Shown here one piece after another: positions 37,731-61,109 of a stretch of 64,000 nt of DNA. The DNA is from a virus. The stretch covers positions 30,530 to 94,529 of IMG/VR virus record IMGVR_UViG_3300034101_001322; one strand, given 5' to 3'. The translations under genes were made by a program, and so were the position numbers. The stretch's first letter is position 1; the number at the start of each line of letters is the position of its first letter. The notes under the pieces are model-generated. The model was given only the letters and a program-made list of their open reading frames with translations, was not told the DNA's origin and did not search any database.

Positions 37731-40310
37731 ATTAAAAATATACTAATCAAATCAGGATTAGTGGGGCTGCTTTTAACTCTTTGGATGATACTTTCTCCTG
37801 CAGAATATGCCCATGCTGATGAGGCTACTGTTCAGGTTAGCCCAAACCCAACTCCAAGTTCAGATCCAGCACCAGTTATAGTTGTAACAATTGCTTCAGT
37901 AGAAGAAAAAATAACTACTGCAGAAACAACACTACAGCAGGCTGCTGAAACTCAATCAACAACTATTATAACTACAATCCAGGCTAATGTTCCTAATACG
38001 GATACTCAGGCTGCTACAACAATTGCCACCACACAAGAGCCTATGGCTACAGCAGTAGCAGAGGCAACAACAAAGGTGCAGGAAGCCACTGCTGCCATAC
38101 AATCAGCAGAAACAGCAGTTGCTATCGCAGAAACAGCAAAGGCTGCAGTTGAAACTCAAGTAACTGTGGTGGCTGAGGCTACAACTAATTTAAATAATGC
38201 ACAGACTGCATTAGATGCAGTAACAAATCAAGTAACATCACAAACCGTGGTTGTTGCAGCAGATACACAAGCAGTAAATACTGCTACAGTAGCAGTTACG
38301 GCTCAGACAGCAGTTGTATCTACAGAAACTGCAGAACTAACTGCTCTGCAAAATACCCCTTCTGGATCAACAACATACACAACTCAAGGCTATGTAGCCC
38401 CTGTTGCTCCAGAAACTATAACAACAACTACTACAATTCTTCCTCCTATGTGGGATGCATCTACTAAAATTGAAACTCCATTTGATATAAAAATGGGAAA
38501 CACATTATATGAAGGTCAAGGAACAAATAGTCAAATCTATGTAACTTCTAAGGCAACCATTACTTTTGGTACAGGAGATCATAATTGGTGGGATTTTCCA
38601 GTAGGACCAAATATATCTGTTTATGCCTCTGACTTTATGAGTGCAGGTCCTGAAGCAAGTATTACTGTAACAACTACTGAAACAACACTAGCAGTTGATT
38701 GGGATCTTCATAGGTTTGGTGATAATAATGGTCCTATTACAAACGTTAATTGGACAATGACTGTTAACCCTACAACTGGGGAATGGACAGGTGTTGGAAC
38801 AGTGGCTGGAAATACAACAAACTTATATAACGGACCTCGTATTGGTGTTCGTGAAGTAGCAGGTGAAGAAGTTAGACCAATGACAAATGTATCAAACTCA
38901 GAATTAACAACTCAAATTGCAGATCAAACTGTGGTAGTTGCTACAGAAACTGCTGAATTAAATACATTAATTACAGAAAAAACAGTTGCTCAAACAAATC
39001 TTACAACAAGTACTACGATTTTAAATACATTGCAAGAACAAAAGACAACCGCAGAAGAAGTTGTTGTTGATAAAACAGAGGTTAAGGCAGCGGAAGTTGC
39101 TACATTAAATCAACTTACAGAAACTGCTACAGTAACAGTTCAAACAGCAGATGCCCTGGCTAATACTGCAACAACAAAAGTTAATGAAGCAGTTACTGCA
39201 ATGACAAATGCTACTCAGGTTACAGTTAATCATTATGCAGAACAAAGAGCAGCCGCTCAAGCAGAATCACAAAGACAGGCAGAAGAAGCAGCGGCACAAG
39301 CAGAGCGTGATGCTCAAATAGCAGAAGCAAGAGCAGCAGCAGCCGAAGCAGCAGCCGCACAAGCAGAAGCAAGTAGAGTGGCAGCAGAGAAAGCAGCAGC
39401 AGATGCAGCAGCAGAAGCAAAGGCTGCAGAAGAAGCAGCCTCTAAAGCAGAAGCAGATCGTGTAGCAGCAGAAGCGGCTGCAGCACAAGCAGAAGCCGAA
39501 GCACAGAAGGCAGAAGAAGATAGAATTGCTGCAGAAGAAGCAGCGGCACAAGCAGAAGCAGAGGCTAAGGAACAACAAGAAGCAGAAGCCCAAGCAGAAG
39601 CAGAAAGATTAGAAGCGGAAGCAGAAGCAGCACGACAGGCTGAAGAGGATGCTAAGGCAGAAGCAGAGGCAAAAGAAGCAGACGCAGAGGCTGCTAGACA
39701 AGCAGAAGAAGATGCCAAAGCAGAAGCGGAAGCAAAAGAAAAAGAATTAGAAGCAGCCAAGGCTGAAGAAGAAAAGGCTCAAGAAAAAAAGGAAGAGTTA
39801 GAAGAAATAATTAAAGAAGCCAAAGAAGGAAAAGAACTAACAGAAGAACAAAAAGAAGTTGTAGTAGAGGCATTGGTAGCAAGTCTTAAACCTGGAGAAT
39901 CAATATCAGCAGCAGAAGTAAAGGTATCTGGAGTTTCATATTCAGATCTTCCACCAGCAACACCAGTAGATGTTCGTACTGATGAAAATGGAAATGCTGT
40001 TGTGATTACTGCAGAAGTTGCTGCTCAGGTTGAATTACTGCAGGACCCAGGAGCCTTGGTAGAAGAATTATTTACAAATCCAGCAGCAGCCTTGGCTGCA
40101 TTTGGAAGCATAGGCGCAGATATGTCAGATGAAGAAAGAGAAGAAGCAACAGATATGGTTGTTGCTACAGTTGTAGCAGCAGGTGCAGCAATTAATGCAG
40201 CAGCAGTTGCCACAGGAGGAGCCACAGGTGGTGGTACAGGTGGTGGAGGAAGTTCTGGTGGAGGCTCAGGAGCCAACTCACCAGGTTCGAGAGGAGGAAG
40301 AAAATGGTAA
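37731..40310 (+). CDS. Secreted long coiled-coil surface protein, probable ATT start
   Basis: 859 residues if started at ATT 37731, which lies 6 bases after a perfect AGGAG. This start gives a proper signal peptide (KNILIK, hydrophobic core LVGLLLTLWMIL, cleavage AHA/DE); the GTG at 37761 would remove the basic n-region and has no ribosome site. Residues 50-215 coiled coil, 216-390 a beta domain (HNWWDFPVG, WDLHRFGDNN), 400-700 a very long Ala/Glu-rich coiled coil, 823-858 a Gly/Ser tail. An exported fibrous protein; may line the cell surface or act in late lysis. Confidence 0.65.
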   Translation: MKNILIKSGLVGLLLTLWMILSPAEYAHADEATVQVSPNPTPSSDPAPVIVVTIASVEEKITTAETTLQQAAETQSTTIITTIQANVPNTDTQAATTIATTQEPMATAVAEATTKVQEATAAIQSAETAVAIAETAKAAVETQVTVVAEATTNLNNAQTALDAVTNQVTSQTVVVAADTQAVNTATVAVTAQTAVVSTETAELTALQNTPSGSTTYTTQGYVAPVAPETITTTTTILPPMWDASTKIETPFDIKMGNTLYEGQGTNSQIYVTSKATITFGTGDHNWWDFPVGPNISVYASDFMSAGPEASITVTTTETTLAVDWDLHRFGDNNGPITNVNWTMTVNPTTGEWTGVGTVAGNTTNLYNGPRIGVREVAGEEVRPMTNVSNSELTTQIADQTVVVATETAELNTLITEKTVAQTNLTTSTTILNTLQEQKTTAEEVVVDKTEVKAAEVATLNQLTETATVTVQTADALANTATTKVNEAVTAMTNATQVTVNHYAEQRAAAQAESQRQAEEAAAQAERDAQIAEARAAAAEAAAAQAEASRVAAEKAAADAAAEAKAAEEAASKAEADRVAAEAAAAQAEAEAQKAEEDRIAAEEAAAQAEAEAKEQQEAEAQAEAERLEAEAEAARQAEEDAKAEAEAKEADAEAARQAEEDAKAEAEAKEKELEAAKAEEEKAQEKKEELEEIIKEAKEGKELTEEQKEVVVEALVASLKPGESISAAEVKVSGVSYSDLPPATPVDVRTDENGNAVVITAEVAAQVELLQDPGALVEELFTNPAAALAAFGSIGADMSDEEREEATDMVVATVVAAGAAINAAAVATGGATGGGTGGGGSSGGGSGANSPGSRGGRKW

Positions 40311-59627: not shown

Positions 59628-59793
59628 AGTCAACCTGGCTTTCAAATATACTGGTCATGTAGTTATCTTCTCCTCTTGCAATCTTAGCAGCAGCAATACG
59701 CATACCTAAAGCATTTGTTACACCTGCATCAATCGGCAAGTTCTCAATCTCCCGTGCAATCTCTTCTCGCAGGGTTATCTCGTCTAGGCTCAT
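59620..59793 (-). CDS. 57-residue helical protein, leaderless
   Basis: LDEITLREEIAREIENLPID then ALGMRIAAAKIARGEDNYMT. ATG is 6 bases after the promoter's -10 box. First gene of a three-gene leftward operon (to 59263). The phrase GMR-AA-IARG recurs in small regulators of other phages; function unknown. Confidence 0.55.
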   Translation of the reverse strand: MSLDEITLREEIAREIENLPIDAGVTNALGMRIAAAKIARGEDNYMTSIFESQVDFE

Positions 59794-59946: not shown

Positions 59947-59953
59947 GCCTATA

Positions 59954-59999
59954 TGCCAGATAACCTTATATGCCAGATATGCCAGATATACGCCAGAGA
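59954..59999 (+). repeat. Short repeats TGCCAGATA (x3) plus CGCCAGAGA
   Basis: Copies at 59954, 59971 and 59980, with a variant at 59991. They open the origin-like region. Confidence 0.8.
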
Positions 60000-60062
60000 T
60001 GAGGTTTGGATACCCTGGAACTTTAGCCTTTACTTAAGGTTTGTTAGCCTTTACTTAAAGAG

Positions 60063-60149
60063 TTATCCACAGGTCAAATAGGTAGTTATCCACAGGTTTA
60101 GTGGTTTGATAACGGTTTGATAACATAGTTATCCACAGGTTTATCCACA
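60063..60149 (+). other. Four perfect DnaA boxes (TTATCCACA)
   Basis: At 60063-60071, 60086-60094, 60129-60137 and 60141-60149, all in the same direction and each extended to TTATCCACAGGT. This equals the bacterial R1-type box. Four copies in 87 bases is far above chance. Confidence 0.92.
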
Positions 60150-60495
60150 GGTAGATCTTACTGATATTTTTTAGATTTATCTTGGAGTGGAGGAAAGTGG
60201 AGTAAAGTGGGTTATTGAGCATTTAGACAGATGGGCTCGTAATGTCCAAACCTCAAACCTTCTTACCACCAAACCTTCATATTGTCAAATCCCCAAACCT
60301 CGATAGCGGATTATACATCCAAACCTCCTATTTGTCAAGTCCCAAACCTTAAAAACCTCCTATAAAAACATAGACATTTTGCAGGATTTTGTCCAAATAA
60401 ATATATAAAGGTTTGTAAAATATCTAGAAAACCAGGGAAAAAGGTTTGATATCGTAATGTTTTATATAGGGGTAATTGTTGTGTATCTTTTGATC

Positions 60496-60508
60496 CCCCG
60501 CTGCGGGG
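60496..60508. repeat. GC-rich mini-hairpin inside AT-rich DNA
   Basis: CCCCG-CTG-CGGGG in an otherwise AT-rich, repeat-filled stretch, followed by a GC-rich island to about 60545. Possible structural element of the origin. Confidence 0.55.
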
Positions 60509-60654
60509 CTGTCTACTAATCCTGGGATTCATCGCTGGGGCGGAGGATAAATAAGTGATGATCGTAATCTTATTAGTAGTATATACAACAACAAACCTCT
60601 ATACCTGGACATAAGGTTTGACATATAGAGGTTTGTATGATATAAGGTTTGGCT

Positions 60655-60775
60655 ATGAATCTGGAAAAATATTTAAACCTTCGTAATAAGTTTTTAAGGT
60701 TTGGAAAAAGTCCATGAATCTGGAAAATTATTTGGAGTATCGTAATGTCTTTTTCGTAAATGAGGTTTGGGTGGT
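60655..60775 (+). repeat. 59-bp direct repeat pair
   Basis: ATGAATCTGGAAAA recurs at 60655 and 60714, and CGTAAT at 60682 and 60741, both 59 bases apart; each unit also carries AGGTTTGG. Confidence 0.8.
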
Positions 60776-60799
60776 TTGTCCCATATGTCCGAATTCCGG

Positions 60800-60836: not shown

Positions 60837-61109
60837 CTACTCGTTGCTTTTTCCTTCTGCAAATTCTAGTAGTTGGTCAAGGTCTTCAAACCCTTCATCC
60901 TTAACTTTCAAACCAGCCAAGAATAATTCCCATGTCTCAGTGACATAACGAATACCATCATCAGAAGGTTGGCAAAGGTTTTCGCTGGTTAGATAAGCCA
61001 ATGGCAAACCTAAGTCGTTGAACTCAATAAAGTCTCCGAAGTTCTTGTCCTCTTTGTAATTAGAGTAAAGGTCTCCCAAGATGTCGCAAATGCTAGAAAA
61101 GTCTGTCAT
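60837..61109 (-). CDS. Acidic protein, leaderless
   Basis: 90 residues, pI clearly acidic. CDILGDLYSNYKEDKNFGDF, ENLCQPSDDGIRYVTETWEL, ending EDLDQLLEFAEGKSNE. ATG at 61109 is 6 bases after its own -10 box inside the upstream gene. Family unknown; acidic DNA-mimic function is a guess only. Confidence 0.6.
   Translation of the reverse strand: MTDFSSICDILGDLYSNYKEDKNFGDFIEFNDLGLPLAYLTSENLCQPSDDGIRYVTETWELFLAGLKVKDEGFEDLDQLLEFAEGKSNE

Follow-up and report, generated by a model that had tools for sequence, protein, structure and literature searches.

A candidate transcription-assisted replication origin with optional DnaA boxes in a family of metagenomic phages

In plasmid origins the iterons are bound by a Rep protein and for the most part follow a regular phase, while those of phage lambda are inverted 19-bp repeats that lie inside gene O and are bound by O. 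At the origins of P1, F and pSC101, iterons stand together with DnaA sites and AT-rich DNA, and in lambda a strong promoter, with transcription across or near the origin, aids opening (PMC5043065). The rule for the bacterial BUS asks for a DnaA box with three or more DnaA-trios no farther than 16 bp from it (PMC8287927). The lactococcal Ceduovirus (c2) origin is non-coding and has early promoters, its replication is tied to the non-coding transcript PE1-T and it is active in a plasmid test without extra phage proteins (PMC7150918). RNA-based prophage origins occur in mycobacteriophages (PMC7157519), and a phage origin with predicted DnaA boxes has been described (PMC11512268). Transcript-linked phage origins and DnaA-plus-iteron origins are kinds already known, as is a phage origin with predicted boxes; the start sites of large lytic phages with their own replisome are mostly unsettled, and for these we define a compact, alignable candidate with about 80 relatives.

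The candidate lies in a window of 64,000 nucleotides, the last 64 kb of a linear virus record of 94,529 bp. Like the origins of P1, F and pSC101, it has repeats and AT-rich DNA alongside DnaA sites, but its AGGTTTG repeats are irregular, no Rep was found among the scanned proteins and its DnaA sites are dispensable in evolution. As in lambda, a strong promoter stands at the putative origin, and no lambda O-like initiator was found in the window's phage. Both this locus and the c2 origin are non-coding with promoters, but they share no sequence, and DnaA boxes are not mentioned in the parts of the c2 account used here; the function of the c2 origin was tested, whereas that of the present locus is predicted from sequence. 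Tandem TTATCCACA boxes oriented to an adjoining AT-rich segment recall the bacterial BUS, but the window lacks three NAN trios within 16 bp, and its core is absent from bacterial genomes. A literature search returned no paper describing this element, which is weak evidence as most subscription journals were outside its scope.

Composition of the non-coding region

A stretch of about 1 kb that holds no conserved gene separates a minus-strand gene starting at 59793 from another ending at 60837, in agreement with an earlier note on this DNA that had called the region gene-free. Open reading frames inside it are all 80 aa or shorter and none is conserved in comparison with relatives; across the AT-rich core, a minus-strand frame of at least 50 aa occurs in just 12 of 66 relatives. 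Because these small frames are not conserved, we consider the region non-coding. An Rfam search of the region gave no match. Named phages searched by blastn with a 3.2-kb stretch around it gave none either; only the tandem-box segment has matches among them.

The elements are arranged in the order DnaA boxes, core, GTGG repeats, TCGTAAT, left AGGTTTG arm with a leftward promoter, AT-rich tract, and right arm with a rightward promoter. Ahead of the boxes, a repeat search identified four ATATGCCAGATA-like repeats (59951-59999, plus strand). As the earlier note had reported, four exact TTATCCACA boxes lie in one direction within 87 bp, at 60063-60071, 60086-60094, 60129-60137 and 60141-60149, all on the plus strand, and between the second and third are two GGTTTGATAAC repeats 11 bp apart (60103-60124, plus strand, repeat search). 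The last two boxes start 12 bp apart, at -28 and -16 from the conserved AT-rich core CTTACTGATATTTTTTAGAT (60157-60176, plus strand), a candidate DNA-unwinding element present in 48 distinct viral-contig contexts, and this register recurs in the family. Three GTGG(AG) direct repeats at 10-bp steps follow (60187, 60197 and 60207; 60187-60210, plus strand), so that core and repeats form a conserved stretch at 60157-60210 which had previously gone unnoticed. Five TCGTAAT copies (60237, 60452, 60562, 60681 and 60740), all on the plus strand, extend over 60237-60746.

The left arm consists of six minus-strand AGGTTTG copies pointing toward the core (60247-60349) and includes another feature added here, a sigma70-type promoter, TTGACA-17-TATAAT (12/12; 60338-60310, minus strand), with AGGTTTG in its spacer, which reads through the GTGG repeats, then the core, then the DnaA boxes. 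An AT-rich tract evident in the sequence (60352-60407) separates the two arms. In the right arm (60409-60769, plus strand), AGGTTTG occurs at 60409, 60442, 60614, 60629, 60645, 60697 and 60763 on the plus strand and at 60592 on the minus strand; this arm also holds an interrupted GC-rich inverted repeat, TCCCCCGC...GGGGCGG (60494-60543), with a comparable pair in many relatives, and the rightward promoter, TTGACA-17-TATAAG (11/12; 60618-60646, plus strand), in which AGGTTTG overlaps the -35 element and recurs in the spacer.

Both motifs are clustered here rather than evenly scattered, which was a check proposed earlier. The window contains five TTATCCACA boxes against 0.79 expected from shuffling, and four of the six in the 94,529-bp record fall within the 87-bp cluster. 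The 16 AGGTTTG copies at 60002-60769 are in both orientations (9 plus, 7 minus), as first described; the window total is 34 against 11 expected, and their density in the region is about 40-fold above that in the rest of the record. A second cluster, of seven AGGTTTG, lies at the record's left end (record positions 290-800; L081:290-800) in partly non-coding DNA, and is perhaps another regulator target if AGGTTTG is an operator.

Conservation of the module and of its DnaA boxes

A scan for CTTACTGATATTTTTTNGAT, located directly downstream of the boxes, returned 66 stretches in viral contigs, and with loci from earlier scans included there were 48 distinct strict-core contexts; a tandem-box scan returned more than 100 stretches in viral contigs, many of which represent this element with its core in variant form. 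Pooled, the two scans place the element in no fewer than 82 distinct contigs of metagenomic phages, and three flanking minus-strand gene families are shared by 50-55 of the 82 loci. Presence in so many contigs with conserved neighbours indicates a functional module. Its constant parts are the AT-rich core, with a mean GC of 0.23 over the first 25 bp across the family, the GTGGAG repeats, with 94 of 101 intervals at 10 bp (58 loci), one-stranded TCGTAAT, and the leftward promoter. A TCGTAAT copy occurs at +50 to +100 in nearly every origin, and across the 58 loci TCGTAA is almost exclusively on the plus strand; these repeats are possibly a priming or single-strand signal. The one-strand bias of TCGTAAT also extends, more weakly, over the flanking minus-strand genes. 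AGGTTTG is oriented 198 minus to 15 plus from +50 to +250 and mostly plus thereafter (58 loci).

The DnaA boxes present a different picture. Upstream of the core, 132 boxes within 400 bp are on the plus strand and none on the minus strand (58 loci), and the -28/-16 pair is found in 39 of 58 origins. The 82-origin set is biased to box carriers, as part of it was found via the boxes, whereas the strict-core sample (n = 48) was drawn irrespective of them; in this sample boxes were in register in 24 origins and not in the other 24, two of which have too little upstream sequence to tell. The window's own cluster of four exact high-affinity boxes in 87 bp is what a DnaA-dependent origin would carry, but the boxes are not conserved family-wide. 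A tree built from three neighbouring proteins requires at least five switches of box presence (four counting starred branches only). Box-free origins, such as that of L089, have other sequence at the box site, frequently GTTTGATAG repeats spaced by 11 bp, or show nothing recognisable there. These patterns indicate that the boxes are an optional part of the putative origin, while core and promoter are its fixed part, and the box-free half of the box-blind sample is in effect a natural experiment that asks whether the host's DnaA is borrowed by lytic phages.

The earlier note had proposed that the phage mimics the host chromosome and recruits host DnaA, and the first of these is not supported. 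Among 84,980 genomes of bacteria and archaea none matched a 23-base form of the core, which was therefore not copied from a host oriC; about half of the related origins are box-free; and the window's boxes are not followed by three or more DnaA-trios within 16 bp. Trio matches occurred in 7 of 59 loci against 24.7 expected from shuffles, and trio-based unwinding was rejected as the mode of opening. One idea is that the GTGG repeats act as weak inverted DnaA boxes, GTGGA being the complement of TCCAC. A phage-encoded DnaA was likewise rejected: the DnaA C-terminal domain (PF08299) had no match in 14 records, comprising the window's record and 13 long relatives, and the same model matched 10 of 14 control genomes. 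Any DnaA used would therefore be the host's.

A WhiB-like regulator gene, together with the kinship of DnaE, which over its length is 55% identical to that of BillNye, 55% to Wakanda and 54% to Annadreamy (all Loccivirinae), points to Actinobacteria as the host. The tandem-box 24-mer occurs in seven bacterial genomes, by title Chitinophagaceae, Eubacteriales, Litorilinea, Clostridium, a proteobacterium, Roseovarius and Marimonas, and none of the seven is titled as an actinobacterium.

Proposed transcription-assisted opening and its alternatives

The leftward promoter scored at least 10/12 in 66 of the 69 origins with enough sequence, at +125 to +211, and was mostly 12/12 with a 17-bp spacer that is often AATAGGAGGTTTGGNNG; random 160-bp windows from the same loci contained such a promoter in 10% of cases. 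As in the c2-type arrangement, a conserved promoter reads through an origin with no conserved frame, the transcript here being predicted. The rightward promoter is present in many loci, though not all. The three exceptions to the leftward promoter (L206, L215 and L259) have DnaA boxes and lack AGGTTTG within the counted span. Wherever the sequence suffices, an origin carries the leftward promoter, DnaA boxes or both, a pattern that with three exceptions is only suggestive. Folds of the two predicted transcripts, which would start near 60303 (minus strand) and 60653 (plus strand), were not exceptional (leftward z = -1.2). Over the GTGG repeats the predicted leftward RNA is rich in pyrimidines, so that a stable R-loop is not favoured at that place.

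The record holds 15 distinct promoters that score 11/12 or better, and GGTTTG is found in only the two at the origin. Copies in the left arm are separated by 7, 16, 24, 26 and 23 bp and are not regularly phased like the repeats of iteron plasmid origins. AGGTTTG looks more operator-like than iteron-like, as it often sits in a promoter spacer or overlaps a -35 element, and its original description as an iteron is doubtful on both counts. The WhiB-like regulator is one of several possible candidates for binding it.

The best reading of the region, as the earlier note had held, and a very probable one, is as the phage's replication origin, given the conserved non-coding module and the phage's own replisome genes. 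DnaB, DnaG, DnaE and SSB are all encoded, as that note had stated, along with RecA, a RuvC-like resolvase and a Cas4-like nuclease whose match is marginal; no named initiator or Rep was found among the proteins scanned, which are a subset of the genes and mostly have no assigned function. Specifically, we assign a probability of roughly 0.55 to a composite, transcription-assisted origin with promoter-driven opening, an optional host-DnaA module and an AGGTTTG operator. From the order, spacing, strand and conservation of the elements and the absence of a DnaA gene, we infer the following steps of transcription, binding and initiation. Host RNA polymerase would start at 60338-60310 and make an untranslated transcript leftward through GTGG repeats, core and boxes, and this transcription would alter superhelicity or leave an RNA that aids opening of the core and may prime synthesis. 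In box-carrying phages only, host DnaA on the boxes at -16 and -28 could provide a second way to open the core and recruit helicase. AGGTTTG at the leftward promoter and at the rightward one (60618) would serve as operator, through which a regulator could set the time of origin firing, and the phage DnaB, DnaG, DnaE and SSB would take over after opening. A fuller version is tentative and falls short of an even bet: the origin would be modular, with a transcription-opened core and a DnaA landing module repeatedly gained and lost in fixed register, the family alternating between DnaA-assisted and DnaA-free initiation, and TCGTAAT with the 10-bp GTGG array forming a new initiation or priming signal.

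Cumulative GC skew, which the earlier note expected to turn at the site, turns at about 50 kb, at a gene-strand switch, and not at 60 kb; raw GC skew tracks gene strand and was discarded as an origin test. Within minus-strand genes, third-position GC skew was higher to the left than to the right of the element in 24 of 32 loci (means 0.060 and -0.018; Wilcoxon p = 0.0006, uncorrected for kinship among these related loci), and skew at fourfold sites agreed (-0.278 left, -0.362 right). The direction is that expected of forks leaving the element, though the signal is small and gene content differs between the sides. Separately, AT skew is extreme (0.52) at 39001-40000 of the window, inside an 849-aa frame (37761-40310) with no Pfam or PHROG match.

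Alternatively, the region could be a plasmid- or oriC-like origin whose core is opened by DnaA, with a phage initiator on AGGTTTG iterons, the promoters being incidental early ones. The fixed register of boxes beside an AT-rich core, the precedent of P1, F and pSC101 (PMC5043065) and a 10-bp GTGG period that could bind an initiator all suit this reading, but we regard it as rather unlikely, because the boxes are missing from half of the unbiased sample, AGGTTTG is irregularly spaced and promoter-linked, trios are rarer than in shuffles and the scanned proteins yielded no initiator gene. An early regulatory hub without any origin, in which two divergent promoters with AGGTTTG operators produce non-coding RNAs and DnaA acts as a transcription factor, would account for the 12/12 and 11/12 promoters with AGGTTTG. 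The leftward operon has its own, nearer promoter at 59828-59800, which fits early regulation but leaves the leftward genes with no need of a distant one; the rightward transcript would be antisense to minus-strand genes, and the most conserved parts, the AT-rich core and GTGG repeats, are some 100-150 bp distant from the leftward promoter, making the hub improbable. Clustered high-affinity boxes could also be a sink like datA, with phage copies titrating host DnaA to block host initiation and the origin lying elsewhere. Variable box presence is easily explained for such an accessory weapon, but it requires no fixed register to the AT-rich core and promoter, and the module is otherwise intact in box-free relatives, so we find a sink distinctly improbable. 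A packaging or terminus site, suggested by an inverted DnaA pair in NootNoot (L310, 120207-120300) 62 bp outside the start of its 10.8-kb terminal repeat, is highly improbable and was rejected as a general reading, since Annadreamy, with the same 12-bp tandem boxes, has a 789-bp terminal repeat at its very ends and its box gap about 6 kb away.

DnaA-box elements in cultured and other phages

The preferred reading, a transcription-assisted origin with optional boxes, can be set beside cultured Streptomyces phages. In the Stanwilliamsviridae Annadreamy, Faust, Wakanda, BillNye and NootNoot (the last, of Boydwoodruffvirinae, compared because of a shared distant tail protein), 2-4 clustered TTATCCACA boxes lie in an unannotated gap of 1.3-1.5 kb near the right end. 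The gaps of Annadreamy and Faust, at 118.4-119.9 kb and 123.2-124.7 kb of their records, contain TTATCCACAGGTTTATCCACA and, some 250 bp from it, a third box, but have GTTGAAC/TTCAAC repeats, not AGGTTTG, whereas the 2-4 boxes of Wakanda, BillNye and NootNoot are partly inverted. No strong consensus promoter was found in the sampled Streptomyces phage gaps, which suggests that the promoter is specific to the window's clade. The DnaA-box gap thus appears common to the cultured relatives, with promoter and AGGTTTG belonging to the window's clade, and since these phages can be cultured and carry their box cluster in a comparable place, part of the reading is open to experiment.

At the left end of the T5-like Salmonella phage bombadil, an annotated repeat region contains TTATCCACAGACTTATCCACAG with TACTG and AT-rich DNA after it at similar spacing; the likeness is to the window's element, but the other repeats differ, and phage and host are unrelated. 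Together with the Stanwilliamsviridae gaps, the T5-like left ends make the statement that such a layout is unusual for phages too strong. In a T5-like phage left end (L308:477-796), a TTATCCACA cluster lies beside AAAGTGGAATGATTCTCATTT repeats, in which AGTGGA resembles the window's GTGG repeats.

Some relatives (L290:14641-14690, L291:7488-7537, L292, L293, L295 and L296) have a second conserved TTATCCACA pair, 41-42 bp apart, with TGANGNANNTCACA-like sequence after each box, upstream of a promoter-like stretch; this pair is absent from the window's record. In a different viral group (L177, L197, L217, L235, L241, L275, L279 and L283), TTATCCACAGGTTTATCCACAGCCTGTGGAT, a tandem plus an inverted box, precedes a T-rich run and is likely another DnaA-box element. 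One further viral contig (L200:12862-13379) contains more than 20 TTATCCACA boxes in about 500 bp.
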